This document shows, one piece after another, positions 24,776-40,401 of a stretch of 64,000 bases of DNA (position 1 is the stretch's first letter; every line of letters starts with the position of its first letter). The notes beneath the pieces are model-generated. The model saw nothing but the letters and a program-made list of their open reading frames with translations, ran no database searches and was not told the origin of the DNA. The translations under genes and the position numbers were made by a program. The DNA is from Pigmentiphaga sp. NML080357 (GTDB lineage Bacteria; Pseudomonadota; Gammaproteobacteria; Burkholderiales; Burkholderiaceae_B). The stretch is taken from positions 62,001 to 126,000 of the forward strand of contig NZ_NINW01000058.1 in the NCBI RefSeq assembly GCF_002188465.1, given 5' to 3'.

Positions 24776-26719
24776 ATGCAATTCCATCTGAACGGGTTCA
24801 AGCCCGGCGACCCCGAAATCTCCGAGCCCGCCGCGCAAGCCGCGGGCGCGCGTGCCGACACCCTGCCCGAGGAAGTCGACGTCCTCATCGTGGGCAGCGG
24901 CCCCACCGGCCTGACCCTGGCGACGCAGCTGGCGGCCTTTCCCGACATCAAGACCTGCATCGTCGAGCAGAAGCCCGGACCGCTGAGGCTCGGCCAGGCC
25001 GACGGCATCGCCTGCCGCACGGTGGAGATGTTCGAGGCCTTCGGTTTCAGCCGGCGCGTGCTCAAGGAAGCCTACTGGGTCAACGAGACCACGTTCTGGA
25101 AGCCCGACGACACGCGGCGCGAGCACATCGTGCGCAGCGGCCGGATCCAGGACACCGAAGACGGCCTCTCCGAGTTCCCCCACGTCATCCTCAACCAGGC
25201 CCGCGTGCACGACTTCTACCTGGAGGTCATGCGGAACTCCCCGTCGCGGCTCGAGCCGGCCTATTCGCGCCGCCTGCTGGAACTCGCCGTTGCCGAATCC
25301 GCAGTGGGCGGCTCGGCCAGCCATCCGGTCACGGCGCGTTTCGAACGCGTCGACGACGCGCACCGGGGCCAGGTCGAAACCGTGCGCGCCCGCTTCGCCG
25401 TCGGCTGCGACGGCGCCCACAGCACCGTGCGCAAGTCGCTCGGCCGCGCCCTGCATGGCGAGTCGGCCAACCAGGCCTGGGGCGTGATGGACGTTCTGGC
25501 CATCACCGACTTTCCCGACATCCGCCTCAAATCGGCCATCCACTCCGCCAGCGAAGGCAGCGTGCTGATCATCCCTCGCGAGGGCGGTTACCTCGTGCGC
25601 CTGTACATCGAACTCGACAAGCTCAACGAGAACGAACGGGTCGCCAACCGGCAGATCACCGCCGACCGCCTGATCGCCGCCGCCCAGCGCATCCTGCGCC
25701 CCTATACGCTGGAGGTGAAGGAGGTCGCGTGGTGGTCCGTGTACGAGATCGGCCAGCGTCTGTGCGACAAGTTCGACGACGTGCCCGAGCAGGAGGAGCA
25801 TGCCCGCCTGCCGCGCGTTTTCATCGCCGGCGACGCCTGTCACACGCACAGTCCCAAGGCGGGCCAGGGCATGAACGTCTCCATGCAGGACGGCTTCAAC
25901 CTCGGCTGGAAGCTCGCCTCGGTCCTTCGCGGCCAGAGCAGCCCGCAGATCCTGCACACCTATTCCAAGGAACGCCAGACCGTCGCCAAGGAACTGATCG
26001 ATTTCGATCGCGAGTTCGCCAAGATGTTCAGCGCGGCCCCCAAGGATCCCACCAAGGACGACGGCGAGGGCATCGACCCCGCCGAGTTCCAGCGCTACTT
26101 CGTCAAGCAGGGGCGCTTCACCGCCGGCACCGAGACCCGCTACTACCCGTCCATCATCAGCGCCGAACCCACCCACCAGGAACTGGCCCAGGGCCTGGTC
26201 ATCGGCATGCGCTTCCATTCCGCGCCCGTCGTCCGGCTGGCCGACGCCAAGCCCATGCACCTGGGGCACACGGTCAAGGCCGACGGCCGCTGGCGCGTGT
26301 TCGCCTTCGCCGACGCCCAGGACCCGTCCTCCCCCGCGTCCCCCATCCATGCGCTGTGCGAGTTCCTCGCCGGCTCGCCGCTCTCGCCGGTCAGGAAATA
26401 CACGCCCGCGGGCATGGACGTGGATAGCGTGATCGACGTCCGCGCCGTTTTCCAGCAAGGACACCGCGCGCTGGCGCTCAGCGCCATGCCGGCCTTCCTG
26501 CTGCCGCGCAAGGGCCGCTACGGGTTGATCGACTACGAGAAGATGTTCTGCCCCGACCTCAAGAGCGGCCAGGACATCTTCGATATGCGCGGCATCGACC
26601 GCCGGCGCGGCTGCATGGTAATCGTGCGGCCCGACCAGTATGTCGCGCATGTGCTGCCGCTGGACGCATACGGCGAACTCGCGGGGTTCTTCGACGGATT
26701 CATGGTGGAGGCGGGCTAG
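24776..26719 (+). CDS. mobA: 3-hydroxybenzoate 4-monooxygenase, MobA-type
   Basis: Flavoprotein hydroxylase of 647 aa in the phenol 2-monooxygenase family. Its start MQFHLNGFKPGDP, length and overall layout match Comamonas MobA (639 aa), which converts 3-hydroxybenzoate to protocatechuate. FAD motifs: GSGPTG (40-45), DG in AVGCDGAHSTVRKSLG, GD in RVFIAGDACHTHSPKAGQGMN. The C-terminal thioredoxin-like domain ends with RRGCMVIVRPDQYVAHVLPLD. ATG 24776 begins at the conserved N-terminus; an upstream Met would add 11 unrelated residues. It is apparently monocistronic and its last 20 nt overlap the convergent acyl-CoA dehydrogenase gene. Confidence 0.9.
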   Translation: MQFHLNGFKPGDPEISEPAAQAAGARADTLPEEVDVLIVGSGPTGLTLATQLAAFPDIKTCIVEQKPGPLRLGQADGIACRTVEMFEAFGFSRRVLKEAYWVNETTFWKPDDTRREHIVRSGRIQDTEDGLSEFPHVILNQARVHDFYLEVMRNSPSRLEPAYSRRLLELAVAESAVGGSASHPVTARFERVDDAHRGQVETVRARFAVGCDGAHSTVRKSLGRALHGESANQAWGVMDVLAITDFPDIRLKSAIHSASEGSVLIIPREGGYLVRLYIELDKLNENERVANRQITADRLIAAAQRILRPYTLEVKEVAWWSVYEIGQRLCDKFDDVPEQEEHARLPRVFIAGDACHTHSPKAGQGMNVSMQDGFNLGWKLASVLRGQSSPQILHTYSKERQTVAKELIDFDREFAKMFSAAPKDPTKDDGEGIDPAEFQRYFVKQGRFTAGTETRYYPSIISAEPTHQELAQGLVIGMRFHSAPVVRLADAKPMHLGHTVKADGRWRVFAFADAQDPSSPASPIHALCEFLAGSPLSPVRKYTPAGMDVDSVIDVRAVFQQGHRALALSAMPAFLLPRKGRYGLIDYEKMFCPDLKSGQDIFDMRGIDRRRGCMVIVRPDQYVAHVLPLDAYGELAGFFDGFMVEAG

Positions 26720-27863
26720 CGGCCTTGATCTCATCGCGCAACCCGGCGGCGACCCTGGACAGGTGATAGTCGGTGTCGCCCAGCGTGGCCTCGATCACGG
26801 TCAATCGCTTGAAGTAATGGCCGATATTCAGCTCCTCGGTAAGCCCCATGCCCCCATGCAGTTGCACGGCCTGCTGGCCGACGAACCTGGCGGCTTCCCC
26901 GATCACCGCCTTCGCTCCCGATACCGCACGGATCCGTACGCACGCATGATCGCTGTCCGCATACCTGGCGGCCAGAAGGGCCATGGACCGCGCCTTCTCC
27001 AGTTCGATGGCCATTTCGGCAACCCGGTGCCGAAGCGCTTGCTGTGCGCCCAGGCGGGCGCCGAACTGGTGGCGGGTCCGCAAATGCTCCATGGTCTGCC
27101 TAAGCAAGGCGCGCATGCAGCCGATGGCTTCGCCGCACAGGGCGGCCGTGCCCTGGTCCAGCACTTTATGGATGGCCGCCAGGGCCGGCGCCTTCAAGCG
27201 CAAGCGCGCCTCGTCGGGAACCATCGCACGATCGAGCCGGACCTCCGCGAAATTCGTTCCGTCATGGGCCTGCCGTGAATACCGGGTTACCCCGGGGGCT
27301 CCGGAGGCAACCAGGAACAATTGCTCGCGGTCCAGGCCGGCAGCGGGCTCTTCGATCCGCGCCGATACCAGCAGCCAATCGGCGTACCCGCCGCCCACGA
27401 TGAAACTCTTGTCTCCCGTCAAAGTCCAGCCTTTGCCCGTGTGCGTCGCACGCGTCGCGAAACGCTCCGCGTCGTATCGGGAATCCGGCTCGAAATGGGC
27501 CAGCGCCATGGTGGCCCCTCCGGACATGAGCTCGCCCAGAAGATGGCGATGCGAACCGGAGTCGCTGCAAGCCAAGAGATTGCCGGCCAGCACGACCGCC
27601 CCCAGGTAGGGCTCGAGCATGAGCCCATCGCCGATTTCCTCCATGACCACCATGACGTCGCGGCTACTGCCCCCCAGTCCGCCCGCCTCTTCGGGCAAGG
27701 CCACGCCCAGGATGCCCATTTCGGCGAGGAACCGCCACGCCTCGGGGCAATATGCCCGCTCTCGTTCGAGGGCCCGGCGATGCTCGAAGCCGTAATGTCT
27801 ACGTACATAGCGGACGAGGGCTTCCCGGACGCCCTCCTGCTCCTGCGTAAGGTTGAAATCCAC
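26700..27863 (-). CDS. Acyl-CoA dehydrogenase, small-subunit type (PimD-like)
   Basis: Acyl-CoA dehydrogenase family flavoprotein of 387 aa. It has a typical N-terminal helical domain (DFNLTQEQEGVREALVRYV), a middle beta-domain (ADWLLVSARI), and the C-terminal domain with RTRHQFGARLGAQQALRHR and QLHGGMGLTEELNIGHYFKR. The start is a GTG at 27863: it begins exactly at the conserved N-terminus, has AGGGGCAG upstream, and leaves a 13-nt gap after the preceding dehydrogenase. The pair resembles two-subunit enzymes such as pimeloyl-CoA dehydrogenase PimC/PimD and actinobacterial FadE heteromers. The acyl-CoA substrate is unknown. Confidence 0.88.
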   Translation of the reverse strand: MDFNLTQEQEGVREALVRYVRRHYGFEHRRALERERAYCPEAWRFLAEMGILGVALPEEAGGLGGSSRDVMVVMEEIGDGLMLEPYLGAVVLAGNLLACSDSGSHRHLLGELMSGGATMALAHFEPDSRYDAERFATRATHTGKGWTLTGDKSFIVGGGYADWLLVSARIEEPAAGLDREQLFLVASGAPGVTRYSRQAHDGTNFAEVRLDRAMVPDEARLRLKAPALAAIHKVLDQGTAALCGEAIGCMRALLRQTMEHLRTRHQFGARLGAQQALRHRVAEMAIELEKARSMALLAARYADSDHACVRIRAVSGAKAVIGEAARFVGQQAVQLHGGMGLTEELNIGHYFKRLTVIEATLGDTDYHLSRVAAGLRDEIKAASPPPP

Positions 27864-27876: not shown

Positions 27877-29079
27877 CTAGATATCCAGGACCTTCGCGAT
27901 GATGTTCTTCTGGATCTCCGTGGATCCGCCGTAAATCGTCGTCTTGCGCATGTTGAAATAGGTAGGCGTGAAACCGTCATCGGAAGGCATGCGCCATCCC
28001 GGGGCGTCCCGCGCCTCGCTGTCGCGCCTGGAATCGAGCGCCCCATGAGGTCCGATAGCCAGCAGCGACACCTCGGACAGTTGCTGATGCACCTCCGAGC
28101 CCACCACCTTCAAGACGGATGCGCCGATATCCGAAACCGCCACGTCCCGATCTCCGGACAGCACCCGGAGGTTGAGCACTTCCAACGCCTGCAAGGCCAA
28201 CTCTGCCCGTGCGAGCCTGGAGAGGAACAACGGATCGTCGACCAGCTTGCCGCCGTAATTGCCGGGATAGCGCCCCGCGGCCGATTTGAGCCGGCTCATC
28301 GCCGCCTGCGCCCTTCCCACCCGGGCGATGTCCGAGCGCTCATGCTGAAGCAGGTACTTGGCGTAGGTCCAGCCCTCGTTCTCTTCCCCGATAAGGTTCT
28401 CCCGGGGTACGCGCACATCGCGGAACCAGACCTCGTTCAACTCATGTTCGCCGTCTATCGTCGGAATGGGGCGGACCTCGATGCCCGGGCTTGCCATGTC
28501 TATCAGCAGGAACGAAATGCCTGCCTGGGGCTTGCCGGAGGTTCGGGTGCGGACCAGGCAGAAGATCCAGTTCGCATGGTGCGCCAGCGTCGTCCAGATC
28601 TTCTGTCCATTGACGACGTAGTGCTCGCCGTCCAGGACCGCGGATGTCTTGAGCGAAGCGAGGTCCGAACCGGCGCCCGGCTCCGAATACCCCTGCGCCC
28701 ACCAGTGCTCCAGCGACAGGATCCTGGGCAGGAAGAAGGACTTCTGTTTCTCGGTGCCATAGCGCATGATGACCGGCGCGACCATGTTCAACCCGAACGG
28801 GATTTCCCGCGGTGTTCCCGCGAGCGCGCATTCGGTATCGAACAGGAAACGCCGGAGCGGATCCCAGCCGGTACCGCCATACTCCACCGGCCAGCCCGGG
28901 CCGCCCCAGCCATGGCGATGCAGGATGCGCTGCCAGCGCACATGGTCGTCCCGCTCCCAAGGCAGTCCCGCTTCCGCCTTGCGGCGCAGGTCCTCCGGGA
29001 AATTGCCCGCGATGAACGCCCTCACCTCGTCGCGGAAGGCGCGCAACTCGTCGCTCAACTCCAGGTCCATGTCCATCAT
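27877..29079 (-). CDS. Acyl-CoA dehydrogenase, large-subunit type (PimC-like)
   Basis: Acyl-CoA dehydrogenase of 400 aa: N-terminal ELSDELRAFRDEVRAFIAGNFP, middle domain YSEPGAGSDLASLKTSAVLDGEHYVVNGQKIWTT, and C-terminal KTTIYGGSTEIQKNIIAKVLDI. Classical single-subunit enzymes carry the catalytic base as Glu in 'YEG' at that last motif; here it is YGG, as in subunits of heteromeric dehydrogenases. The start at 29079 overlaps the hydrolase stop by 4 nt; ATGs at 29076 and 29070 follow the GGAGGG site at more usual distances and are equally possible. Probably forms an alpha2beta2 complex with the next gene product. Confidence 0.9.
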   Translation of the reverse strand: MMDMDLELSDELRAFRDEVRAFIAGNFPEDLRRKAEAGLPWERDDHVRWQRILHRHGWGGPGWPVEYGGTGWDPLRRFLFDTECALAGTPREIPFGLNMVAPVIMRYGTEKQKSFFLPRILSLEHWWAQGYSEPGAGSDLASLKTSAVLDGEHYVVNGQKIWTTLAHHANWIFCLVRTRTSGKPQAGISFLLIDMASPGIEVRPIPTIDGEHELNEVWFRDVRVPRENLIGEENEGWTYAKYLLQHERSDIARVGRAQAAMSRLKSAAGRYPGNYGGKLVDDPLFLSRLARAELALQALEVLNLRVLSGDRDVAVSDIGASVLKVVGSEVHQQLSEVSLLAIGPHGALDSRRDSEARDAPGWRMPSDDGFTPTYFNMRKTTIYGGSTEIQKNIIAKVLDI

Positions 29080-29783
29080 CCCTCCAGACGGATTTCCGCC
29101 CAGGCCTGCAAGGCGATGTTGACGGCCTCGGGGCGCTCGAGCGTGCACAGATGGCCGCATTCGGGAATGACGACCAGCCGGCTATTGGGAATGGCCGAAG
29201 CCATCTCCCTGGCATGGGAGGGCGGCGTGATGGCGTCCGCATCGCCGACCACGATAAGTGTCGGGCAGGCGATCGCCCCCAGTCCGGGCCTGGCGTCGGG
29301 CCGTCCGCCAATTGCCTCTTGCTGGCGCAGATAGCCGGTCAGGCCGACCTCGTCGGTCATCGTCCGATGCGTGGCCCGCAACGCGTCGTCGGTTTGCCGG
29401 GACGGGTGCACGTTCTTGGCGTAGTGCAGAGGAGGAATCGCGACGTAGTCGCCTTCCCGCGCGACGGCAACCCGCGCATCGCGAATTTCCTTTTCCGCCG
29501 GCGTATCCGGGCGCGCGCTGGTAGCGAGCAACGCGACCTTCCCGATCCGTTCAGGCGCTCGTCTCAACATTTCCAGGGCCACGAAGCCGCCGAGCGACAG
29601 GCCGACCAGGGCAAAGATCGGCGGCGCGGTCTCGAGCATGGATTCGGCCAGGCCCTCGACGGAATTGCTGACCCTGTGGTCGCACACCGTGACCGGGCCG
29701 TACTTCCACAGCAGGGGCAGCTGATGCTGGAACAGCCTGGCTGAACAGTTCAGCCCGGGAATGAGCAGTATTGGCAAAGACAT
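29076..29783 (-). CDS. Alpha/beta hydrolase
   Basis: Small alpha/beta-hydrolase (235 aa). It has the oxyanion segment LLIPGLNCSARLF, nucleophile elbow GLSLGG (Ser63), the acid in VVGDADAITPP and the His in CGHLCTLERP, so the triad is complete. The short lid is typical of carboxylesterases and C-C bond hydrolases such as MhpC or enol-lactonases. In an operon with an acyl-CoA ligase and acyl-CoA dehydrogenases, it may open a lactone, ester or ring-cleavage product, or hydrolyse a CoA thioester. Function not determinable from sequence alone. Confidence 0.88.
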   Translation of the reverse strand: MSLPILLIPGLNCSARLFQHQLPLLWKYGPVTVCDHRVSNSVEGLAESMLETAPPIFALVGLSLGGFVALEMLRRAPERIGKVALLATSARPDTPAEKEIRDARVAVAREGDYVAIPPLHYAKNVHPSRQTDDALRATHRTMTDEVGLTGYLRQQEAIGGRPDARPGLGAIACPTLIVVGDADAITPPSHAREMASAIPNSRLVVIPECGHLCTLERPEAVNIALQAWAEIRLEG

Positions 29784-29810: not shown

Positions 29811-31478
29811 TCAAGATGGGGTCGCGCGCCGCGCCTCGTCCTGCAGGACGCGCCACAGGATCTTGCCTACCGAGGATTTCGGAAGCGCGTTGACGAACTG
29901 GACCGACCGGGGACACTTGTACGCCGACATCCTCGCCCTCGCCCATTCCGCAAGCTCCTGCTCCGTCAGGGCATGGCCGTCAGCGCGTATGACCACGGCC
30001 TGGACGCTCTCGCCGCGATAGGCATCGGGGACGCCGATGACGCAGACCTCTTTCACGCCGGGATGCTGCAGCAGCACCTTTTCCACCTCCGCCGGCCATA
30101 CCTTGTACCCGGAAGCGTTGATCATCCGCTTGGCACGGTCGGTCAGGAAAAAGTACCCTTCGTCGTCGACGTGCCCGATATCGCCCGTCCTCAGGAAACG
30201 GCGACCTTCGATGTCGATGAATGCCTCGCGCGTTGCTTCCGGATCATTCCAATAGCCGGAGAATAATTGAGGCCCTCGCACCACGATCTCGCCGGATTCG
30301 CCCGCGCCCGCGTACGCGCCGCCGTCGGGGTCGATGACCAGCGCCTCGGTGCCGAAGAAGGGAACGCCGATGCTCTGCCGCTTGGGCCGGACGACAGGAT
30401 TCAAGTGCGTCGTCGCCGCGGTTTCCGTCAGGCCGTAGGCTTCGATGAATGTCACCCCCAACGTTTCCTCGACCCGGTTCGCAAGGGCGTCAGGCATGGC
30501 GGCTCCCCCCGAAGTCAGGCGCCGGAGACTGCTGAAGTCGAAGCCCGGCAGATCCGGCATGCCCAGCAGGTCCACAAGTGCGGTTGGCGGAATGCTCGCA
30601 TGACCAATGCGCCGCCGCTCGATCAGCGCAGCGACGATCTCCCGGTCCCAACGCGGCACGACAACCGAGCTGCCTCCGACATACACCGGCAGATGAACGC
30701 CGTGATTCAGTCCGGAGACGTGGAACATCGGGGCAACGCCGAGCACCGGCGTTCCCGGGGCCACCCAATGCCACAGAGCCTGGCCGACAATATTGTGCAT
30801 GTAGGCGCGATGCGTCAGGAGACATCCTTTGGACCTGCCCGTCGAGCCGGACGTATAGACGATGCCCGAGGGGTCATCGGCCGTGGCAAGGGACGCCGCG
30901 GGCGCCTCCATGGCGGCGAGCACGTCGTGCCAGGCCACAATGCCTTCGCACCGGCGGGACGGCTCGAGCACCCAGGCCGGCAGGGTGTAGTCATGCGATT
31001 GAAGCAGATAGTCGCGATACACGACGCCAATGATGACCGACAAGTCGGTGCCGCTCGATGCGGCACCGAGTTCGGGCAGGAGATCCTGCGCACATACCGC
31101 GACCCGGGCGCCGCTGTCCGACAAATAGTGCGCAAGCTCGGCCGCCCGGCTCATGGGGTTGACGGCGACGACCACCGCATCCGCCCGCAATACGGCATAG
31201 TAGGCAACGACCCACTGTGGGGAATTCTGCAGGTAGAGCAGCACCCTGTCTCCGCGCCGCACACCCGCCCGCCGGGTCAGCCACCCGGCCAGCCGTTCCA
31301 CCTCGTCGTGCAAACGGCGATAGTCGATATCGGTGCCGAAAAAGTGCAGCGCCGTGGACGACGCGTAGCGACGCCGGGAAACCTCCAGCATGTCGTGTAT
31401 GGTCGTTTCCGGCACGGCCAATTGCCGTGGCAGGTCCTTGGGCCAATAGAATCGACGCCCGGTCACTGAGGTTTCCAT
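29811..31478 (-). CDS. Acyl-CoA ligase (AMP-forming)
   Basis: ANL-superfamily ligase of 555 aa that should activate a carboxylic acid to its CoA thioester at the expense of ATP. Motifs in order: P-loop YTSGSTGRSKG, the FHVSGLNHG turn, YGLTETAATTH, the hinge TGDIGHVDDEGYFFLTDRAKRMINASGYKVWPAE, and the catalytic Lys in LPKSSVGKILWR. It is closest in layout to medium/long-chain fatty acid ligases. It is cotranscribed with the Bug receptor upstream and the hydrolase and dehydrogenases downstream, giving capture, activation and dehydrogenation of one acid. Confidence 0.9.
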   Translation of the reverse strand: METSVTGRRFYWPKDLPRQLAVPETTIHDMLEVSRRRYASSTALHFFGTDIDYRRLHDEVERLAGWLTRRAGVRRGDRVLLYLQNSPQWVVAYYAVLRADAVVVAVNPMSRAAELAHYLSDSGARVAVCAQDLLPELGAASSGTDLSVIIGVVYRDYLLQSHDYTLPAWVLEPSRRCEGIVAWHDVLAAMEAPAASLATADDPSGIVYTSGSTGRSKGCLLTHRAYMHNIVGQALWHWVAPGTPVLGVAPMFHVSGLNHGVHLPVYVGGSSVVVPRWDREIVAALIERRRIGHASIPPTALVDLLGMPDLPGFDFSSLRRLTSGGAAMPDALANRVEETLGVTFIEAYGLTETAATTHLNPVVRPKRQSIGVPFFGTEALVIDPDGGAYAGAGESGEIVVRGPQLFSGYWNDPEATREAFIDIEGRRFLRTGDIGHVDDEGYFFLTDRAKRMINASGYKVWPAEVEKVLLQHPGVKEVCVIGVPDAYRGESVQAVVIRADGHALTEQELAEWARARMSAYKCPRSVQFVNALPKSSVGKILWRVLQDEARRATPS

Positions 31479-31488: not shown

Positions 31489-32472
31489 TCAGTTCAGCGA
31501 GATATTCGCCGACTTGATGATTTTTGCCGTACTGGCGATCTCCGTTTCGATAATCTGCCTCATTTTTTCCGGCGAACTGGGAAAGGGGTCTCCTCCCGCG
31601 GCCAGGATCCGCCTTCTCATCTCCGGCTCGTTCAGGACTGCGACGAGCTCCTTGTTCATGCGATCCACGATTGCCGCCGGCGTGCCAGCAGGCATCACTA
31701 TTCCGAACCAGGAAATGAAGTGGTAGCCCGCCACACCCGCCTCCGCCATGGTGGGCACGTCCGGTATCAATGAGGATCGCGTCGAACTGGTCTGGGCCAG
31801 TACGCGCAGCTTGCCCGCCTGGATGTGCGGCGTGGCGGTCGGCAGATCCGTGAACGCGGAATCAAGATGTCCCGCCACGACGTCCACCGTGGCGGGACCC
31901 GTTCCCTTGTAGGGCACGTGGATAAGCTCCGCTCCGGTCAGCTGGTTCAGCAGCTCGCCCGCCAGGTTGGTAGAACTTCCCGGGCCTGCCGAGCCGTAGC
32001 TGAAGCGCTTTCCCGCCTTGGCTCTCTCCAGCAATTGCGCCACGCTCTTGATGTCGCTGGATGCGTTCACCACGAACACCAGGGGATTGTTCACCACCAT
32101 CGACACCGGCGCGAGATCCTTGAGCGGATGATAGGGCAGGTTCGGCATCAAGTTGACATTGGACGCCAGCGTACCGGCCGTCCCGAAACCCATGGTGTAG
32201 CCATCCGGTTTCGCCCGGGCCACCAGTTCGAGGCCAACCACCCCACCCGCGCCGGCGCGGTTGTCGAGGATGATGGACTGCCCCAGCCGCTTGCCCAGCT
32301 CGGGCAAGACTATGCGCCCCACGGTATCTGCCGACCCGCCAACGGCGTAGCCGACGTGGAACAGGATGGGCTTGCTCGGATAGTCGCCCGTGGCGCGATC
32401 CTGAGCATGAAGCGGCATGCACGTGAACAACACGGCAGCCGCCAGCGAACCACTTCCAACCACAGCCTTCAT
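31489..32472 (-). CDS. Bug-family tripartite tricarboxylate transporter substrate-binding protein
   Basis: Periplasmic Bug receptor (327 aa). Signal peptide of about 23 residues (ends PLHAQD), then DYPSKPILFHVGYAVGGSADT, DNRAGAGGVVGLELVARAKPDGYT, YHPLKDLAPVSMV and IPDVPTMAEAGVAGYHF. It is the first gene of the leftward acyl-CoA operon, 10 nt before the ligase. ATG 32472 was chosen over an in-frame Met 13 codons upstream because it directly precedes the hydrophobic signal segment. Confidence 0.93.
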   Translation of the reverse strand: MKAVVGSGSLAAAVLFTCMPLHAQDRATGDYPSKPILFHVGYAVGGSADTVGRIVLPELGKRLGQSIILDNRAGAGGVVGLELVARAKPDGYTMGFGTAGTLASNVNLMPNLPYHPLKDLAPVSMVVNNPLVFVVNASSDIKSVAQLLERAKAGKRFSYGSAGPGSSTNLAGELLNQLTGAELIHVPYKGTGPATVDVVAGHLDSAFTDLPTATPHIQAGKLRVLAQTSSTRSSLIPDVPTMAEAGVAGYHFISWFGIVMPAGTPAAIVDRMNKELVAVLNEPEMRRRILAAGGDPFPSSPEKMRQIIETEIASTAKIIKSANISLN

Positions 32473-32571
32473 GATGCACCCCCGCACAAGGAAAGCGATC
32501 TCCGATCGCATTGGTTGAACATCCAGGACCTGCCTTCTTCGCCGCCATGCTATATCGCAATTAGGTAATTT

Positions 32572-32595: not shown

Positions 32596-32654
32596 TCCAT
32601 TTCAGATGGCTCCTCGGGCTTTCCCCTAGACGCCGGCCGCATCGATTTTTTTCT

Positions 32655-32683: not shown

Positions 32684-32731
32684 TCGAACCTCATCAGGCA
32701 AATGCGGCTGTCAGAACTGGAGGAGACTGTC

Positions 32732-33238
32732 ATGGAAAACGCATTCTCTGCCCGCGAGTTCCGGAACGCGTTAGGTCTCTTCGCGACCGGCGTCGCCGTC
32801 GCAACCGCGTCGAACCATCGTCATCGAGCGGGCATCACGATCAATTCATTTGCGTCGGTCTCTCTGTCGCCTCCCCTCGTTCTATTCAGTGCCGCCAAGA
32901 CGCTGAACTCCATCGATACGTTCAACGATGCCGCGGGGTTCACGATCAATGTCCTGAGTGCCGACCAGGCATCCCTCTCGGCGCAATTCGCCAAGGCGGG
33001 AGAAGACAAATGGCTCAACGTCGGCACTGCCGCCGGCAAGCACGGCGGGATCGTGATCACGCCCTGCCTGGTCAGCTTCGACTGCAAGCTGCACGCCAAA
33101 TGCGATGGCGGCGACCACGTCATCTTCATCGGCGAAGTCACCGACATCATCGACGGAACGGGCGACCAGCCTCTGCTCTATTTCCGGGGAAGCTACCGCG
33201 ACCTCGCACCGCGCTCCGGCGCCAGGCTTGCTGCCTGA
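32732..33238 (+). CDS. Flavin reductase (HpaC-like component of a two-component monooxygenase)
   Basis: Flavin reductase of 168 aa with the FMN-binding split-barrel fold: FRNALGLFATGVAVATA, SFASVSLSPPLVLFSAAK, TINVLSADQASLSAQFA, and the C-terminal GDHVIFIGEVTDI ... LYFRGSYRDL. Such enzymes deliver free FADH2 or FMNH2 to a partner oxygenase, here encoded 26 nt downstream. ATG 32732 has an ideal GGAGGA 7-8 nt upstream; the in-frame ATG at 32702 has none. First gene of a long rightward operon. Confidence 0.92.
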   Translation: MENAFSAREFRNALGLFATGVAVATASNHRHRAGITINSFASVSLSPPLVLFSAAKTLNSIDTFNDAAGFTINVLSADQASLSAQFAKAGEDKWLNVGTAAGKHGGIVITPCLVSFDCKLHAKCDGGDHVIFIGEVTDIIDGTGDQPLLYFRGSYRDLAPRSGARLAA

Positions 33239-33264: not shown

Positions 33265-34749
33265 ATGGCCCAAGACATCAAGAACGGATCTACGCATCTG
33301 GCCTCCCTTCGGGACGGCCGCTCGGTTTACATCAACGGCAAGCACGCGGGAGACGTCACCGAGCATGCGGCCTTCCGCAACGCTATCGCGTCCACCTGCG
33401 ATCTGTACGACTTCCAGGCCGATCCCGACAGGGCGGAACTGATGACGTTCGAAACGGAGTCCGGCGCTCGCGTCAACCGCGCGTGGCAGGCGCCAGGCTC
33501 ATACGAAGAGCTGGTGCGGCGGCGCGAGGCACTCACGACATGGGCGGAACTGCATGGCGGTTTCATGGGACGCTCTCCGGACCATGTCTCCAGCGCCTTG
33601 TTGGGGCAACTGATGGGGATCGAGGTCTTCGAGCGACACGACATCAAGCGCGCCAACGCGTTTCGCGAATACTTCAGGTATGCGCGCGACAAGGATCTGT
33701 TCCTGACCTACGTCATCATCAATCCGCAAGCAGATCGCTCGAAAGACTGGGGCGACCAGCCGGCGGAAGACCTGGTCGCCTCCATCGTCGACGAAGACAA
33801 CGAGGGCATCACCATCCGCGGCGCGAAGATGCTGGGCACCAGTTCCATCATGGCCAATGAAGTCTTCGTCGCCAACCTGCAGCCGCTGCGCCCCGGCGAA
33901 GAGAATCTCGCTTTCGCTTGCGCGCTGCCCATGAATGCCAAGGGCCTGAAGGTCCTGTCCAGGAAGTCCTTCGAAGAACACGCGGTCTCCCATTTCGACA
34001 ACCCATTGGCATCGCGCTTTGACGAAAACGACGCCTTGATGTACTTCGACGACGTCAAGGTTCCCTGGGACCGCGTCTTTGTCTACAAGGACACGGATAC
34101 ATGCCGGGCCCAGTTCCACGACACGCCGGGGCACACCATGCAGAACTACCAGGCGCAGATCCGCCTGATGGTGAAGACGCGCTTTCTTCTCGGCGTGGCA
34201 AGAAAGATCACCGAGACCATCGGTACCATCGCCCTGCCCCCCGTCCGCGAAAAGCTTGGCTGGCTGTCGGCCAAGGTCGCCATGGTGGAAGGCATGGTGT
34301 ATGGCATGGAAGCGGCCGGTCACCTGCATAACGGCTTCTATGTACCCAACCGCAATCTCATGTATTCGGCTCAGGTCGTCACACAGGAGCTCTATCCACA
34401 ACTGGTCAATGCGATACGCGAGCTTGCCGGAGGCGCGCTCATCATGCTGCCGTCCTCCGAGGACGACCTGAGAAACCCCGAGCTGCTTCCCATCATCCGC
34501 AAGACCCAGGTCTCGGGCCACATGAGCCCGGAAGAGCGCGTCAAATTCCTCAAGCTTGCCTGGGATGCGCTGGGCAGCGAGTTCGCCTCGCGCCACCTGC
34601 AGTACGAGATGTTCTATGCCGGAGCCCAGTTCGTTACTTGCGGCCATAGCTTCCGAACCCGCAATTGGGCCGAGTCGACGGGACTGGCCGAGCGAGTGCT
34701 GTCTGCCCGTGCCGCGCCTTCGCCTGCCGCCGCAAGGAACGCAGCCTGA
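33265..34749 (+). CDS. 4-hydroxyphenylacetate 3-hydroxylase family oxygenase (HpaB-like)
   Basis: Oxygenase component (494 aa) of a two-component flavin monooxygenase. It is related to acyl-CoA dehydrogenases in fold and to HpaB and halophenol monooxygenases in sequence. Landmarks are GFMGRSPDHVSSALLG, LTYVIINPQADRSKDWG, GAKMLGTSSIMANEVFV and YFDDVKVPWDRVFVYKD, followed by a helical C-terminal half with LPPVREKLGWLSAKVAMVEGM. It should hydroxylate a phenolic ring using reduced flavin from the preceding gene. The substrate could be a hydroxyphenylacetate, phenol or another hydroxylated aromatic; the downstream importer suggests an amphipathic or amino-acid-like compound. Confidence 0.9.
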   Translation: MAQDIKNGSTHLASLRDGRSVYINGKHAGDVTEHAAFRNAIASTCDLYDFQADPDRAELMTFETESGARVNRAWQAPGSYEELVRRREALTTWAELHGGFMGRSPDHVSSALLGQLMGIEVFERHDIKRANAFREYFRYARDKDLFLTYVIINPQADRSKDWGDQPAEDLVASIVDEDNEGITIRGAKMLGTSSIMANEVFVANLQPLRPGEENLAFACALPMNAKGLKVLSRKSFEEHAVSHFDNPLASRFDENDALMYFDDVKVPWDRVFVYKDTDTCRAQFHDTPGHTMQNYQAQIRLMVKTRFLLGVARKITETIGTIALPPVREKLGWLSAKVAMVEGMVYGMEAAGHLHNGFYVPNRNLMYSAQVVTQELYPQLVNAIRELAGGALIMLPSSEDDLRNPELLPIIRKTQVSGHMSPEERVKFLKLAWDALGSEFASRHLQYEMFYAGAQFVTCGHSFRTRNWAESTGLAERVLSARAAPSPAAARNAA

Positions 34750-34796: not shown

Positions 34797-35672
34797 ATGC
34801 TGCTTCAGCAAATTGTCAATGGCCTGCTCCTCGGCGGTGTCTACGTCCTGGTCGCGGTCGCGTTCTCCATCTGCTGGGGATTCCTGAACTTCGTTAACTT
34901 CTCGATCCCTGCGCTCTTTTCCCTCGGAGGATTCTGCATCTGGGTCTTCATGCAGTACGGGATAGGTTGGTGGCCCTCCGCCTTGCTGGCGGTTGTCCTG
35001 GCGGCAGCGGTCTCATGCATCGTGGAGCGCTTCACCTTCCGGTTCCAACGCAACGCCGGCCCCGTCGTCCCGCTGGTCAGCTCCCTGGGCTTTCTGATCC
35101 TGATCGAGAACGTCCTGCTCGCCCTTTATGGCTCCGAGGGCCGCGCGGTGCAACTTCCCTTGCAGGACGTGAACTGGCGCATCGACGGCCTGGTCATCAG
35201 CCTGCCCCAATTGGGAGGGTTGCTGCTGGCGATACTCCTGGTCGCGGGATTTTCCGTCGCGCTCAAGACGAGCAAGCTCGGGCGCGGAGTACGCGCGATT
35301 GCCGAAAGCCCGGATACCGCAGTCCTGCTTGGCGTACGGATCAACTCGCTCGTTCCCCTGGTTTTCCTGTTGGCCGGCGTGTTCTCCGGCCTGGCAGGCG
35401 TGCTGTTCGCCCTGGGATACCAGCAGGTATCGCCATTCATCGGCGACCAGGTGGCGCTCAAGGGCTTGTCCGCCATGGTCCTGGGCGGAATGGGCAGCAT
35501 CTGGGGCGCGGTCTTGGGCGGGCTGGTCATCGGTATTGTCGAAGTACTGGCGATCCGCTTCTGGTCGGCCGATTTCGTCAAGATCGCGGTCTACGGGGTG
35601 TTGCTGCTCTTGCTGATCATCAAACCCTCCGGACTGCTCGGCAATGGCCAGACACGTCAGGAGAAATTCTGA
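34797..35672 (+). CDS. livH: Branched-chain amino acid-type ABC transporter permease LivH
   Basis: Inner-membrane permease of a HAAT (Liv) importer, 291 aa with about eight membrane helices. Family segments: NGLLLGGVYVLVAVAFSICWG at the N-terminus, SSLGFLILIENVLLALYG, and RAIAESPDTAVLLGVRINSLV followed by GLSAMVLGGMGSIWGAVLGG. A GAGGGAG site precedes the ATG. It is cotranscribed after the two-component monooxygenase, so the importer probably carries that enzyme's substrate rather than leucine. Confidence 0.93.
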   Translation: MLLQQIVNGLLLGGVYVLVAVAFSICWGFLNFVNFSIPALFSLGGFCIWVFMQYGIGWWPSALLAVVLAAAVSCIVERFTFRFQRNAGPVVPLVSSLGFLILIENVLLALYGSEGRAVQLPLQDVNWRIDGLVISLPQLGGLLLAILLVAGFSVALKTSKLGRGVRAIAESPDTAVLLGVRINSLVPLVFLLAGVFSGLAGVLFALGYQQVSPFIGDQVALKGLSAMVLGGMGSIWGAVLGGLVIGIVEVLAIRFWSADFVKIAVYGVLLLLLIIKPSGLLGNGQTRQEKF

Positions 35673-36514
35673 TGAGCGGCTACGTCGAGACCATCCTGGT
35701 CATGCTCAGCATCAATGTCATCCTCGCCTATGCGGCATTCCTGCCGCTCGCCGCTGGACAAGTCAACCTTGGCATAGCCGGCCTGATGGCAATTGGCGCA
35801 TACGCGTCCTCGTACCTGGGTGCGGAGTATGCCGTACCCCCCGGCCCAGCCATCGCCATTGGCGTCTTGATCTCGGCGGCAGTGTCGATCGTGATCGCCT
35901 TTCCCATCCTGCGCACACGCGACATCTACCTGGCATTGGCGACCCTCGCCCTGGGCGAATGCATCAGCGGCATCATCATCAACACCGAGGCGCTCGGCGG
36001 TGCCGCCGGATACTCCGTCTCCGGTTACGTGGGCCTGCCGTGGATCGCCTCGTGCGCGATCGGCGTTTGCGTGCTGGTGTTCATCCTGTTTCGTACGCGC
36101 CTGGGGCTGTGCATCGTCTCGGTCGACGACGACGAGCGCGTGGCAGACCTGCTGGGTATCCATGTGCGCGCGGTGAAAGTAGCGGCATTCTCGATGGGCG
36201 GCGCGCTGGCCGGCCTGGCCGGCGGCCTGTACGCCCACTATTTCAGCTTCATCGAGGGCCAGCACTTCACCGTCCTGCTTTCCGTCTACGTCGTGCTGTA
36301 TGTGCTGCTGGGCGGTGCCAAGACATTGATCGGCCCGCTTGCCGGCGCATTGATCTTCACGCTCATGCCCGAGCTCCTTCGCGCAGGCAACGAATGGCGC
36401 TACGCGCTGTTCGCGTTGTTCGTGATCGCCGTCATGGCGATACGTCCCCATGGGTTGTTCATGCCCGGCCAGCCTCCCTGGCGCCGGTTGGGCAGGTCGG
36501 GAGAAGCGAGATGA
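35672..36514 (+). CDS. livM: Branched-chain amino acid-type ABC transporter permease LivM
   Basis: Second permease of the Liv-type importer (280 aa). It has several membrane helices and the family loops LPLAAGQVNLGIAGLMAIGAYASS, RTRDIYLALATLALGE and SVDDDERVADLLGIHVRAVKVAAFSMGGALAGLAGGLYAHY. Its start overlaps the LivH stop by one base, and its stop overlaps the LivG start as ATGA, so the four transporter genes are translationally coupled. Confidence 0.93.
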   Translation: MSGYVETILVMLSINVILAYAAFLPLAAGQVNLGIAGLMAIGAYASSYLGAEYAVPPGPAIAIGVLISAAVSIVIAFPILRTRDIYLALATLALGECISGIIINTEALGGAAGYSVSGYVGLPWIASCAIGVCVLVFILFRTRLGLCIVSVDDDERVADLLGIHVRAVKVAAFSMGGALAGLAGGLYAHYFSFIEGQHFTVLLSVYVVLYVLLGGAKTLIGPLAGALIFTLMPELLRAGNEWRYALFALFVIAVMAIRPHGLFMPGQPPWRRLGRSGEAR

Positions 36515-37275
36515 GCGATACCCTTCTCGCGCTGTCAGGCGTTTCGAAATCCTTCGGCGGGCTGAAGGTCATCGACGATGTCTCATTCACGATACCGCGG
36601 GGTTCGCGCAGTGCGATCATCGGCCCCAACGGCGCCGGCAAATCCACCTTGTTCAACCTGATCAGCGGCGCCTTCCCGACAGACCGGGGCAGCATTACCC
36701 TCGACGGCATCGAACTGACCGGCATGCCGGCACGCCATCGCGCCCGCCATGGCCTGACTCGCAACTTCCAGAACATCCGGCTGATGCCCACGCTGTCCAC
36801 CTTCGACAATATGCTGCTGGGCCAGCATGCGCGCGCAGCAGGACTTGCCGAACTGTTGCGGCCGGTCCGGTCTCCGAGGGCGCGCAACATCTGGCGCGAC
36901 GAGGTTCGCGAAGAACTCGACCTGGCAGGCCTGGGCGCCTATGTCGATAGCAGGGTCGAAGGCCTGCCCTACGGCATACGCAAGAAACTGGAAATCGTCC
37001 GCGCCTTGCTGGCCAGGCCCAAGCTGTTGCTCCTGGACGAACCTTGCGCCGGCCTGAACACCGCCGAGCGCGACCAGATCCTGCCGTTCCTGCGTTCGCT
37101 GGAGCGCCGCGGCATTACCCTGATGATCGTCGAACACGACATGCAGTTGATCGCCGATCTATGCGACCACGTGATCGTCCTGAACTTCGGGGTCAAGATC
37201 GCCGAAGGGGCGCCGGACTGCGTACGTGCCGACCCCCAGGTCATTACCGCCTATCTTGGCGCGGAGGATCAATGA
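36511..37275 (+). CDS. livG: ABC transporter ATP-binding protein LivG
   Basis: ATPase of the Liv-type importer, 254 aa. Walker A GPNGAGKST (about 38-46), the LivG-specific GLTRNFQNIRLMPTLSTFDNM Q-loop region, and Walker B LLLLDEPCAGLN with the D-loop and the IVEHDMQLIADLCDHVIVLNFGVKIAEG end. The signature reads LPYGIRKKLEI rather than canonical LSGGQ; the LivG family commonly has LPYGxQRxLEI, but the Gln is replaced here by Arg. Overlaps both neighbours by 4 nt. Confidence 0.93.
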   Translation: MSDTLLALSGVSKSFGGLKVIDDVSFTIPRGSRSAIIGPNGAGKSTLFNLISGAFPTDRGSITLDGIELTGMPARHRARHGLTRNFQNIRLMPTLSTFDNMLLGQHARAAGLAELLRPVRSPRARNIWRDEVREELDLAGLGAYVDSRVEGLPYGIRKKLEIVRALLARPKLLLLDEPCAGLNTAERDQILPFLRSLERRGITLMIVEHDMQLIADLCDHVIVLNFGVKIAEGAPDCVRADPQVITAYLGAEDQ

Positions 37276-38000
37276 CCACGGCGCTGCTCGAGATCCAGGG
37301 CCTGAGCGTCCAGTATGGCCGCAACATGGCGCTCAAGGACTTTTCATTGCGTGTCGGCGCGGGCCAGTTGATTGCCGTGCTGGGGGCGAACGGAGCAGGC
37401 AAGAGCTCCCTGCTCAAGACCATCGCCGGCCTGGTCCGGCCTGCCTCCGGCTCCCTGGCGCTGGAAGGCAGGGACCTGCATCGCGCCAGCGCGTCGGAAC
37501 GGGTCGCCCGTGGGATAGCCTTGGTTCCGGAAGGGCGCTGGATCCTGGTTTCCATGAGCGTGCATGAGAACTTGCTGATGGGAGCCTGGTGCAGGAAAGG
37601 CGCCGTTCCCGCCGGCGAGCTGGAGGCGATCTACGCCCGTTTCCCGAACCTGGCTTCGCGTCGACACATGCCGGCTGCCGTCCTGTCGGGCGGCGAACAG
37701 CAAATGCTGGCGATAGGCCGCGCGCTGCTGTCCCGTCCGCGGCTGTTGCTGCTGGACGAACCGTCCCTGGGCCTGTCGCCCCTGCTCGTCCAGCAACTGT
37801 TCACGCTGATTCGGGACCTGAACCAGGAAGGCCTGAGCATGATCCTCGTCGAACAGAACATCCGCAAGGCCCTGCAGGTGGCCCACCGCGTTCATGTGCT
37901 TGAACTGGGCAGGGAAGTCGCGCATGGGGAACCCCAAAGCCTGATGGCCAGCTCCGCGCTGCATGAAGCCTACCTCGGCCGCGCTCGTCCGGCGCCCTGA
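37272..38000 (+). CDS. livF: ABC transporter ATP-binding protein LivF
   Basis: Second ATPase of the importer, 242 aa. Walker A GANGAGKSS, the LivF-typical ALVPEGRWILVSMSVHENLLMGA, signature LSGGEQQMLAIGRAL, Walker B LLLLDEPSLGLSP and H-loop-region ILVEQNIRKALQVAHRVHVLELG. The usual LivF 'EGR-R-F' segment is EGRWILVSM here, a mild deviation. The ATG overlaps the LivG stop (ATGA); the receptor gene follows after 32 nt. Confidence 0.93.
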   Translation: MTTALLEIQGLSVQYGRNMALKDFSLRVGAGQLIAVLGANGAGKSSLLKTIAGLVRPASGSLALEGRDLHRASASERVARGIALVPEGRWILVSMSVHENLLMGAWCRKGAVPAGELEAIYARFPNLASRRHMPAAVLSGGEQQMLAIGRALLSRPRLLLLDEPSLGLSPLLVQQLFTLIRDLNQEGLSMILVEQNIRKALQVAHRVHVLELGREVAHGEPQSLMASSALHEAYLGRARPAP

Positions 38001-38032: not shown

Positions 38033-39229
38033 ATGAACAAGCTCTTGCCCGCATTCCTGCTGGCGCTCGGCATGACCGCCACAACGGCCCATGCGCAGAC
38101 TCAAGGTGAAATCATTCTAGGCTTCACCACGGCCAAGTCCGGTCCTTTTGTCACGTTTACGCGGCGTAATGAGATCGCAGTGAACCTGGCCGTCGAAGCC
38201 GTCAACGCCGAAGGCGGCATCAACGGCAGGAAACTCACCGTCCGCCAATTCGACACCGCCGGCAAACCCGACCAGGCCGCCGCGGCCACCCGCTACTTCG
38301 CCAACGACGTGGGAGCGCTGGCCATCGTGGGCCCCTACACTTCCAGCGAAGCCCGTATCGCGTTTCCCGTGGGAGACCGGCTGGGCATTGCCCAGATGGC
38401 CATCGGATCGGCCGCCCCGGGGTTGGCAAAGCCATTCAAGTTCGCGTTCCGCAACACCTCCGACGAAGGCTATCTCTTCCAGCGCGTGCTGGCGGTCATG
38501 AAGGAGAAGAATATTGCGCCACGTTCCGCGGCGCTGGCCTACGCGACCGACGACGTGGGCGGCCGGACGATGGGCGAGGTGACCTTTCCCGGATTGCTGA
38601 AAAAGAACGGCGTCCAGATCACGCAGAGCATCTCCTTCCCCAGTGCGGTGTTCGACCTGTCGACCCAGGTCGCGCAATTGAAGAGCAACCCACCCGACAT
38701 CATCGGGCTCGGTGCCTTTCCCGACCCGACGGTGGTGCTGCTGAAAGAGCTCAGGCGCCAAGGCCTCGCGAACGTGCGCGTGGTCGGCGGGACGCAGTCG
38801 GCAGACTGGAACCTGCTTCAACGCGCGGGCGCCGACGCCAACGGGACGATCGTCGCCTCCACCTACAATCCCGACGACGATCGCGCCATGAGCAAGGCCT
38901 TCAGCGACGAGTTCGTCAAGCGCGCCCAGAAGGCCGGCGAAAGCGGCGACCTGCGGCCCAACATGTACGACGCGGCAGCCTATACCATCGTGAAGCTCTA
39001 CGCCGAGGCCATGCGCAACGGCAAGGTCACCGGTGAAAAGGGCAAGCTCGCGCAGGAACGCGATATTGTCCGCACCGAACTCATGAAACTGTCCGGCCTG
39101 GAAACCGTTGAAGGCCGGCACACGGGCTTCACCGAGGAAGGCGATGCTCTGAAGACCGCCTACGCTCTCGAGATCAAGGACGGCAAGTGGTCCTTGCTGG
39201 GCAGCAAAGGCCCCCAGGACGTCAAATGA
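38033..39229 (+). CDS. ABC transporter substrate-binding protein (LivJ/K-type receptor)
   Basis: Periplasmic receptor of the Liv-type importer (398 aa). It has a signal peptide ending TAHAQ at residue 22, then GEIILGFTTAKSGPFVTFTRRNEIAVNLAVEAVNAEGGINGRKL, typical type I periplasmic binding fold, and a second domain with TFPGLLKKNGVQITQSISFP. In leucine receptors the ligand's amino and carboxyl groups are held by specific Ser/Thr/Tyr/Glu residues; I cannot confirm these, so an aromatic or other acid is likely given the operon. GGGAG precedes the ATG. Confidence 0.93.
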   Translation: MNKLLPAFLLALGMTATTAHAQTQGEIILGFTTAKSGPFVTFTRRNEIAVNLAVEAVNAEGGINGRKLTVRQFDTAGKPDQAAAATRYFANDVGALAIVGPYTSSEARIAFPVGDRLGIAQMAIGSAAPGLAKPFKFAFRNTSDEGYLFQRVLAVMKEKNIAPRSAALAYATDDVGGRTMGEVTFPGLLKKNGVQITQSISFPSAVFDLSTQVAQLKSNPPDIIGLGAFPDPTVVLLKELRRQGLANVRVVGGTQSADWNLLQRAGADANGTIVASTYNPDDDRAMSKAFSDEFVKRAQKAGESGDLRPNMYDAAAYTIVKLYAEAMRNGKVTGEKGKLAQERDIVRTELMKLSGLETVEGRHTGFTEEGDALKTAYALEIKDGKWSLLGSKGPQDVK

Positions 39230-39354
39230 TGCGGGACCGCCATTCCGCCGTCTCACCAATCGAGACTTGAAATTGACTCAGGCCCCGGAATTCAGAATAG
39301 TCGGCCCGCTACCTCAAGCCGCGATGCAGGCGGCAAGACCAAAGCGGAGACATC

Positions 39355-40401
39355 ATGAAACGCGTCGCTCCTCCCATCGAGGCGTCCGCCGGGTTCCCGG
39401 GCCACCCAAAGCCGCTTGACGCCAGGCTTCGCCGGATCGTACTGGGAGCCGGCATACTTGCGGCCGCGACCCCCCTATGGGCAGCCGCCCAAGGCGACTA
39501 CCCCGCTCGCGTCATCAAGCTGGTCGTCCCTCTTCCACCCGGATCCCCCATCGACACCGCCGGCAGGCTGTTCGCGCGAAACCTCTCGCGCACTCTGGGC
39601 GCAACGGTCATCGTCGAAAACAAGCCGGGAGCGGGAGCCACCCTCGGCACCGCGGAGGTCGCACGCAGCAAGCCGGATGGTTACACGCTGCTCTTCACCG
39701 TTCCGGATCCCCTGGTGTCTGCTCCGTTCACGATGCAAGTTCCCTACGATCCGCAACGCGACTTCCGTCTCGTCAGCAAGGTGGCGGAATCCATTTCCGG
39801 CCCGGTGCTTCTCACCCAAAGCACCGCTTCCGTGAACGACCTCGCGGGCCTGATCAAGGACGCCAGATCGTCCTCGGCGCCTCGCACCTACGCCTCGTTC
39901 GGCCCGGCCTCATACCCTCAGCTGATCCTCGAATCCCTGGCCAGGCAGGCCGGCATCAAGCTCACCGAGGTACCCTACAGGGGTTCGCCCCCGGCCATGC
40001 AGGACCTGATCGCCGGCGAAGTCAACCTGGCGTTTGCGTCCGTGGAGAACGCCTTGCCGCACCTCGCCGCGGGAAAGATCAAACCCATTGCCATCGTTGA
40101 CAAGTCTCCCAGGTTTCCTGGCGTTCAGACGTTTTCGGAAGCGGGATTCGATGGGTTCGTGTTTCGCAGCAAGCCTTGGCACGGGTTGCTTGCTCCGGCC
40201 GGCACGCCCGAGGCGGTCATTCAAAAACTGGCGCTTGCCGCCAAGGCTGCGGCCAACGACCCGGGATTCAGGAAATCGCTGGAGGATCTTGGGTTCCGGG
40301 CGATCGGGAGCTCCCCTGGCGAGTTTCTTGAAAGCTATCGCGCGGAGGCGTCGGCAATCCCGGCGTTGATCAAGAGCTTGGGGATTGGCTCGCGGCCGTG
40401 A
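39355..40401 (+). CDS. Bug-family tripartite tricarboxylate transporter substrate-binding protein
   Basis: Periplasmic Bug receptor (348 aa) with an unusually long N-terminus. About 25 polar residues precede the hydrophobic segment RIVLGAGILAAATPLWAAAQ, which resembles an export signal with an extended n-region; a later start is possible but no good Met exists. Family landmarks: DYPARVIKLVVPLPPGSPIDT, VENKPGAGATLGTAEVARSKPDGYT and PYDPQRDFRLVSKVAES. It lies 125 nt after the Liv receptor, on the same strand, and ends before the bidirectional terminator. A TTGACT at 39273 with GAATAG 16 nt later could be a weak promoter of its own. Confidence 0.9.
   Translation: MKRVAPPIEASAGFPGHPKPLDARLRRIVLGAGILAAATPLWAAAQGDYPARVIKLVVPLPPGSPIDTAGRLFARNLSRTLGATVIVENKPGAGATLGTAEVARSKPDGYTLLFTVPDPLVSAPFTMQVPYDPQRDFRLVSKVAESISGPVLLTQSTASVNDLAGLIKDARSSSAPRTYASFGPASYPQLILESLARQAGIKLTEVPYRGSPPAMQDLIAGEVNLAFASVENALPHLAAGKIKPIAIVDKSPRFPGVQTFSEAGFDGFVFRSKPWHGLLAPAGTPEAVIQKLALAAKAAANDPGFRKSLEDLGFRAIGSSPGEFLESYRAEASAIPALIKSLGIGSRP

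Follow-up and report, generated by a model that had tools for sequence, protein, structure and literature searches.

Divergent catabolic operons with an HpaB-fold oxygenase in Pigmentiphaga sp. NML080357: a possible island for degradation of an N-heterocyclic acid

Introduction

What substrate is served by the two divergent catabolic operons described here for Pigmentiphaga sp. NML080357, and do they form one pathway? The operons lie in a window of 64,000 nt, bases 62001-126000 of contig NZ_NINW01000058.1 (here C5) of the 5.73-Mb draft genome (GCF_002188465.1), and combine an HpaB-fold oxygenase and a Liv-type importer with a coenzyme A (CoA) ligase, an alpha/beta hydrolase and a pair of acyl-CoA dehydrogenases. 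An original prediction, made from the letters alone, had read them as one island with a shared control region, encoding an undescribed pathway for a complex aromatic or cyclic acid that would need a nearby extradiol enzyme for ring cleavage. We propose instead a laterally acquired island for an N-heterocyclic acid of the hydroxypyridine or hydroxynicotinate kind, with its ring opener encoded on another contig (C58), a reading whose chance we put a little short of even. The gene set itself does appear to be undescribed, as literature searches found no account of it. Below, other contigs of the genome are also given C numbers, and loci compared are given L numbers.

Results and discussion

The oxygenase belongs to a separate subfamily

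Searches with open reading frames (ORFs) and with Pfam and NCBIfam profiles confirmed two divergent operons, with every gene named earlier present at the place and on the strand predicted (Table 1). The left operon encodes a Bug receptor, the CoA ligase, the hydrolase and a dehydrogenase pair resembling PimC/PimD; the right operon encodes a flavin reductase, the oxygenase, the importer and a second Bug receptor. The oxygenase carries both HpaB domains (PF11794, 282 bits; PF03241, 184 bits) and misses both HpaB equivalog cut-offs (TIGR02309, 306.7 < 480.2; TIGR02310, 279.5 < 885.2). Aligned with the Thermus enzyme (2yyg), it retains Arg100, has His for Tyr104 and Tyr for His142, and has Leu205/Gln206 in place of Ser197/Thr198. 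Arg100, Tyr104 and His142 have been described as highly conserved catalytic sites and Ser197/Thr198 as the carboxylate anchor (PMC10537072), and in a study of the HadA structure Tyr104 and His142 are given as the catalytic base of TtHpaB (PMC8342789). Arg-His-Tyr was found in 97 of 98 aligned sequences, that is, in the window oxygenase and 96 of the 97 others, with some loci contributing more than one sequence. On sequence, the Arg-His-Tyr oxygenases are a distinct subfamily. No protein of the genome other than the window oxygenase matches HpaB_N. This oxygenase shares its family and a separate flavin reductase with the HpaBC 4-hydroxyphenylacetate 3-monooxygenase but differs in the TIGR02309 score, in the Tyr104/His142 swap and in the Leu/Gln pair; the swap and the missed cut-offs ruled out identity as a 4-hydroxyphenylacetate hydroxylase.

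One explanation for the operons is ordinary phenolic-acid catabolism, in which a catechol would be formed and cleaved by a gentisate- or protocatechuate-type dioxygenase from elsewhere, the ligase and dehydrogenases would degrade the side-chain, and the hydrolase would be an enol-lactonase or meta-cleavage hydrolase. HpaB-family enzymes do mostly ortho-hydroxylate phenols (PMC10537072, PMC8342789), the hydrolase is PcaD-like, and MobA-like and gentisate-type genes lie nearby. However, key phenol-binding residues are exchanged in the window oxygenase, the annotation of three type-2 records (defined below), taken from an incomplete gene table, shows no ring-cleavage dioxygenase in the roughly 9 kb around HpaB, and the flanking gentisate-type and MobA genes are host-like in GC content at third codon positions (GC3), unlike the island. 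We consider this explanation unlikely, though a serious one. The nearby extradiol enzyme was rejected as a partner, since none of that family was found among the 36 ORFs, out of 45 picked from the window, that the Pfam scan took in. The nearest ring-cleavage candidate in the window is a two-cupin gene (18506-19900) that looks gentisate-dioxygenase-like from its neighbours and sits in a host-like cluster. The need for a conventional ring-cleavage dioxygenase was not borne out, and a PF01979/PF06684 pair on C58 is put forward in its place.

Loci of close oxygenase relatives often encode an enamidase-like protein

Neighbourhoods were compared for the best 80 of 135 confirmed HpaB relatives, with record titles from Proteobacteria, Acidobacteria and Chloroflexi, and for L139 (81 loci; for two records lacking a gene table the surroundings were read by tblastn only). 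PF01979, PF06684 and MarR genes were sought with L002 proteins as queries (E<=1e-10). Of the 34 loci whose best HpaB reaches at least 62% identity, 22 gave a PF01979 match, 20 a PF06684 match and 26 a MarR match; neither PF01979 nor PF06684 was detected in the remaining 47, an absence that is weak as several contigs are short. Gene order in L002 is MarR-reductase-HpaB-PF01979-PF06684-alpha/beta hydrolase and that in L007, L009 and L010 is MarR-HpaB-LivHMGF-receptor-PF06684-PF01979. The window order HpaB-LivH-M-G-F-receptor recurs in the latter three and in L024 and L027, with permeases 53-59% and Liv receptors 57-61% identical. Because an enamidase-like PF01979 protein and PF06684, a pair also present on C58, accompany the closest oxygenase relatives, an N-heterocyclic acid is preferred to a generic aromatic or cyclic one, and the predicted substrate was revised to a probable N-heterocyclic acid. 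Type-2 loci (HpaB about 55-61%) hold combinations of flavin reductase, DUF2848, cupin and amidase genes, in some with Liv; clusters with DUF2848, a DUF4437-like cupin, amidase and sometimes Liv recur at L041-L056, L171, L172 and L175.

The pair in the genome of NML080357 occupies C58:167635-169405. Its PF01979 protein (168212-169405), encoded directly 3' of the PF06684 gene, is 78% identical to that of L002 and matches enamidase 2vun with 342 bits (next solved match, 24). A GntR regulator is encoded upstream of the pair and a PF01494 (class A flavin) monooxygenase downstream, the nearest Protein Data Bank entries for the latter being PnpA and HspB, a hydroxypyridine monooxygenase. In a tree of 36 chosen sequences the window HpaB grouped with those of L002, L003, L004, L005 and L139 (support 0.986), and in a tree of 28 sequences the C58 PF01979 protein grouped with those of the same loci (0.997). 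This common clade is the main reason, and not proof, for placing the two proteins in one pathway, a link between contigs that we infer. Throughout the six-member clade of the C58 protein, Gln replaces the first of the two metal-binding His residues of HxH, which the other sequences compared keep, and the C58 protein has Lys162 at the position of the enamidase Glu. Relatives on plasmids comprised 25 records, five of which were read: PF06684 adjoins PF01979 in three and lies about 7 kb away in Sulfitobacter. The 67% identical relatives on Mariluticola and Mesorhizobium plasmids adjoin PF06684 and lie within 5 kb of a succinate-semialdehyde dehydrogenase gene. The 44% relative on the Sulfitobacter plasmid (L228) accompanies 6-hydroxynicotinate reductase, PF06684, a CoA ligase and an acyl-CoA dehydrogenase, likely an aerobic reductive nicotinate pathway. 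A second PF01979 protein of NML080357, Glu-type like enamidase, is encoded on contig C3 (L101, 122-133 kb) with two PF06684 genes and Liv-like genes, and this locus may encode a nicotinate-type pathway.

A hydroxypyridine pathway offers a family-level parallel. In Arthrobacter, 4-hydroxypyridine is hydroxylated by the flavin monooxygenase KpiA (PF01494); the ring opener KpiC (PF01979) was reported as an extradiol dioxygenase, with a product structure not fully settled and an enamidase as its nearest experimentally characterised homologue, and the alpha/beta hydrolase KpiB then acts (PMC7356986). At the level of protein families, the Kpi system of Arthrobacter sp. IN13 is alike in its flavin monooxygenase, PF01979 protein (on C58 a candidate ring opener) and alpha/beta hydrolase, and in a FadR/GntR-type regulator as at C58. 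It is unlike in that KpiA is a single-component PF01494 enzyme, whereas an HpaB-fold oxygenase with separate reductase occurs here, as do Liv uptake, CoA-ligase and dehydrogenase genes, genes split over contigs and a MarR-type operator (PMC7356986). No PF01494 monooxygenase is encoded in the island; one stands beside the PF01979 gene on C58. The counterparts (island hydrolase, PF00561; C58 protein, PF01979) were matched by Pfam and not by KpiB or KpiC sequence. No fumarylacetoacetate (FAA) hydrolase, the counterpart of KpiD, was found among the island genes in a search confined to the window, where the flanks hold such genes at 12907 and 20718. The reductive nicotinate pathway (2vun; Sulfitobacter) is alike in an enamidase homologue, PF06684, CoA ligase and acyl-CoA dehydrogenase, and unlike in the two residues replaced by Lys and Gln in the C58 protein.

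Another possibility is catabolism of a lactone or coumarin-type O-heterocycle, where the hydrolase could act as a lactonase. PF06684-type proteins include TgnF in trigonelline and HcdD in 7-hydroxycoumarin degradation, HcdD being encoded with the cupin-like HcdF among the 7-hydroxycoumarin genes; in that work no effect of HcdD could be demonstrated (PMC7913881). An O-heterocycle nevertheless seems very improbable to us, given that the PF01979 partner is enamidase-like and that the related clusters read carry nicotinate-type or amidase genes. A structure paper of 2010 on PF06684 noted branched-chain amino-acid ABC genes nearby and suggested a role in amino-acid metabolism (PMC2954203). Literature searches yielded no paper on DUF2848/DUF4437, on PF06684-type proteins with an amidohydrolase and a monooxygenase, or on 6-hydroxynicotinate reductase plus enamidase, and nothing relevant on dipicolinate or on HpaB-type enzymes with an amidohydrolase and MarR.

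The two operons probably serve one pathway

The left-operon hydrolase, in which a Ser (GLSLGG)-Asp-His triad is visible, is proposed to be a deformylase/amide or lactone hydrolase. Relatives 61-67% identical lie within about 2 kb of HpaB in L002 (67%), L026, L029 and L032. A search based on the hydrolase was a fair control because these loci had been fetched by HpaB. It found such a gene (E<=1e-50) in 15 of 398 other genomes of the order, the best at 52% and the others at 42-47%, and a best match of 49% on plasmids, with the proviso that three of the four HpaB-near loci are from Alphaproteobacteria, which the search covered on plasmids only. HpaB was not detected around three of the 15, whose surroundings were fetched. 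That the hydrolase is tied to HpaB loci, and that the gap holds an operator-like palindrome common to HpaB/MarR loci, supports the view that the two operons belong together, probably in one pathway, and here the predicted single island with one control region held up.

The alternative is two independent pathways back to back, the left for a dicarboxylate or branched acid via CoA and the right for an N-heterocycle. A separate Bug gene in each operon would fit this arrangement, as would five stretches chosen for having ligase and dehydrogenase relatives on one contig, in which both occur with HpaB undetected. Set against these are the closeness of the left hydrolase to HpaB-near hydrolases, the one common gap with operator-like sites and the even GC3 of all 13 genes, and we find two pathways rather improbable. 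The dehydrogenase pair resembles the PimC/PimD pimeloyl-CoA dehydrogenase in its adjacent large and small subunit genes and in its best NCBIfam matches, but both subunits score well below the equivalog cut-offs (Table 1); homologues of the PimC-like subunit at 50-57% identity occur in 85 of the 398 genomes (E<=1e-120). Ligase relatives on plasmids were followed as a lead, and two contexts gave no link. In Bradyrhizobium sp. 187, a 51% identical ligase is divergent from a flavin adenine dinucleotide (FAD) monooxygenase, DUF2848 and a cupin.

Operator-like sites in the shared control region

The predicted 259-nt gap assumes an internal Met start for Bug receptor 1 (32472) and a reductase start at 32732, and shrinks to 220 nt if the longer Bug ORF (32511) is taken. 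Site 1 in this gap is a palindrome, ATTAGCTT-N7-AAGCTAAT, with no other match in the genome at fewer than three mismatches, and site 2 is 78% like it over 18 nt. A search of the 350-nt upstream regions of HpaB, reductase and MarR genes at 86 loci, made without use of the window, gave TAGCT-N9-AGCTA as the commonest 5-nt dyad (16 loci; 7 of 50 independent groups), against a mean of 0.02 groups and a maximum of 1 in 100 resampled sets. It occurs once in the window, at 32661, within site 1. An earlier motif had included the window site; a later one from L013, L017 and L019 left the window letters out and put its two top sites in the 64 kb in the gap (29.6 and 20.1; next 14.7), a rank that is partly circular as the training sites were found by likeness to the window site. 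Of 76 loci, without L013, L015, L017-L023 and L039 (training or near) and L174 (no HpaB), 30 had their best motif site no more than 400 bp upstream of a core gene, where 6.0 would be expected; among the 18 loci scoring at least 18, this was true of 15. The promoter scan found no promoter.

The island itself yielded no MarR gene. The nearest homologue in the genome to the HpaB-linked MarR lies at C4:96777-97358 (69% to L002 MarR; next 28%), with operator-like sites around it scoring 24.1, 17.9 and 17.2, and is our candidate regulator. The C4 cluster (L102/L105, about 86-100 kb) encodes a zinc alcohol dehydrogenase, PF06684, Bug proteins, an amidase, TauD, HpcH/HpaI and a class III CoA-transferase besides MarR, with an IscS-type desulfurase beside MarR and operator-like sites. 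An IscS-type cysteine desulfurase 77-80% identical to the C4 copy also stands between MarR and the HpaB operon in L171 and L173.

A possible pathway and its weak points

We propose that the acid would be taken up by Liv, perhaps also by a Bug receptor, and that the HpaB-fold oxygenase with its flavin reductase would hydroxylate the ring. The PF01979 protein, encoded on C58 beside PF06684 and a class A flavin monooxygenase, could then open the ring by hydrolysis or as a KpiC-like dioxygenase, and the hydrolase would remove a formyl/amide or lactone part. The CoA ligase would activate the remaining carboxylic acid, which the PimC/PimD-like pair would then dehydrogenate. Both operons would be controlled through the operator-like sites, probably by a MarR encoded elsewhere, for which that on C4 is the closest. 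The anatomy, the sequence linkage, the common clade and the operator enrichment were observed; the substrate class and this order of reactions are what we infer.

Several findings weigh against this scheme. Type-2 HpaB loci have amidase, cupin and DUF2848 instead, and the hydrolase is near HpaB in only four of the 81 loci. In relatives, HpaB is accompanied by weak or distant ligase and dehydrogenase matches at most, so that the CoA steps rest on operon membership and the Sulfitobacter analogy. The inner branching of the trees differs, the window HpaB grouping with L002 and L139 (0.959) and the C58 protein with L003, L004 and L005 (0.956). HpaB was detected in none of the five plasmid stretches read, so the PF01979/PF06684 pair also occurs without it. 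C58 may serve another substrate, as it carries a class A monooxygenase and a GntR regulator of its own and lacks an operator-like site next to the PF06684 gene; that missing site, with scores of 20.3 (C58) and 19.3 (C11) at unrelated places in the genome, argues against simple co-regulation of all three loci. The C4 MarR candidate sits in a cluster of its own, other dyads reached at least 7 groups in 4 of 20 resampled sets, and the circularity of the window rank applies here too.

A wider proposal, which we regard as speculative and unlikely as a whole, is that a widespread Arg-His-Tyr branch of HpaB-fold oxygenases starts N-heterocycle catabolism with an enamidase-fold opener, that the QxH form of the six-member clade works as a single-metal ring-opening dioxygenase, and that in NML080357 the pathway became dispersed over at least two loci after lateral transfer and reads a MarR operator without an island MarR. 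If the N-heterocyclic reading is true, a chemistry class would be given to a large gene group named 4-hydroxyphenylacetate 3-hydroxylase in public records, the PF06684, DUF2848 and DUF4437-like neighbours would gain testable roles, and a concrete operator and regulator could be tested. The case also shows how gene neighbourhoods and trees of relatives can guide the search for a missing pathway step to another contig.

Table 1. Features of the divergent operons and their right edge (window coordinates; scores in bits for profiles and as motif scores for sites)
Feature	Position	Strand	Evidence
Acyl-CoA dehydrogenase, PimD-like small subunit	26700..27863	-	PF00441/02770/02771; TIGR03203 310 bits, cut-off 652.7; start refined from 448-aa ORF
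Acyl-CoA dehydrogenase, PimC-like large subunit	27877..29070	-	TIGR03204 417 bits, cut-off 623.85
Compact alpha/beta hydrolase, PcaD-like	29076..29783	-	PF00561/PF12697
AMP-forming acyl-CoA ligase	29811..31478	-	NF006181 730 bits, cut-off 705
Bug (TctC) receptor 1	31489..32511, alternative start 32472	-	PF03401
Shared divergent control region	32473..32731	.	GC 0.467
Operator-like site 2	32559..32584	.	20.1, second-best motif match in window
Operator-like site 1	32658..32683	.	29.6, best motif match in window
Flavin reductase component	32732..33238	+	PF01613; NF045919 156 bits, cut-off 340
HpaB-fold two-component oxygenase, Arg-His-Tyr subfamily	33265..34749	+	PF11794+PF03241; TIGR02309; active-site columns
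LivH-type permease	34797..35672	+	PF02653
LivM-type permease	35672..36514	+	PF02653, in ORF 34967-36514
LivG-type ATPase	36511..37275	+	PF00005, PF12399
LivF-type ATPase	37272..38000	+	PF00005
Liv-type receptor (Peripla_BP_6)	38033..39229	+	PF13458
Bug (TctC) receptor 2	39355..40401	+	PF03401
tRNA-Ser(GGA), by right edge of low-GC3 block	40531..40620	-	ARAGORN

Artificial overlaps were removed by refining the starts of the dehydrogenase, HpaB (33265), LivM (35672), LivG (36511) and LivF (37272) genes.

Transport genes

The importer is complete, as had been predicted: two PF02653 permeases, two PF00005 ATPases and one PF13458 receptor in one operon, the set of a Liv/HAAT ABC importer. Liv-type importers are common next to aromatic genes. 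In 18.8 kb around the Liv relative of Roseomonas marmotae, HpaB is not annotated. The two Bug receptors, part of the combination called unusual in the original prediction, turned out to be ordinary and were rejected as a sign of novelty, since at least 150 are encoded in the genome (of 302 candidates, 150 were scored, all above the cut-off); the window holds four, those beyond the island at 5821-6951 and 16497-17483. The nearest solved structures for Bug receptor 1 are 2dvz, terephthalate-binding proteins and Bug27, and no TctA/TctB permeases of a tripartite tricarboxylate transporter (TTT) were found among the island genes.

Origin and flanks of the island

GC3 is 0.76-0.83 in all 13 island genes against 0.84-0.91 in the 15 flanking genes measured, and the gap is AT-rich (GC 0.467 against 0.633 for the island). 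An HpaB relative (E<=1e-100) was found in five of ten other genomes of the genus searched, none of the five above 47% identity, and a match at E<=1e-190 in one of the 398 other genomes of the order. The island was likely acquired laterally, to judge by composition and distribution. A tRNA-Ser gene starts 130 nt beyond the last island gene. A comparison of 26300-26950 with 40380-41060 gave no direct repeat of at least 9 nt, the 3' end of the tRNA is not duplicated within the window, and the 36 ORFs scanned include no integrase. On the left, the edge was placed at a plus-strand aromatic hydroxylase gene (24743-26719; NF006144, 1105 bits), which we take to be MobA-like, because GC3 there is host-like; its end lies 20 nt inside the convergent dehydrogenase gene. 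Further left, 16497-21590 encodes a Bug receptor, LysR, the two-cupin protein, a 3-hydroxybenzoate 6-monooxygenase and an FAA hydrolase, the gene content of a conventional gentisate cluster.

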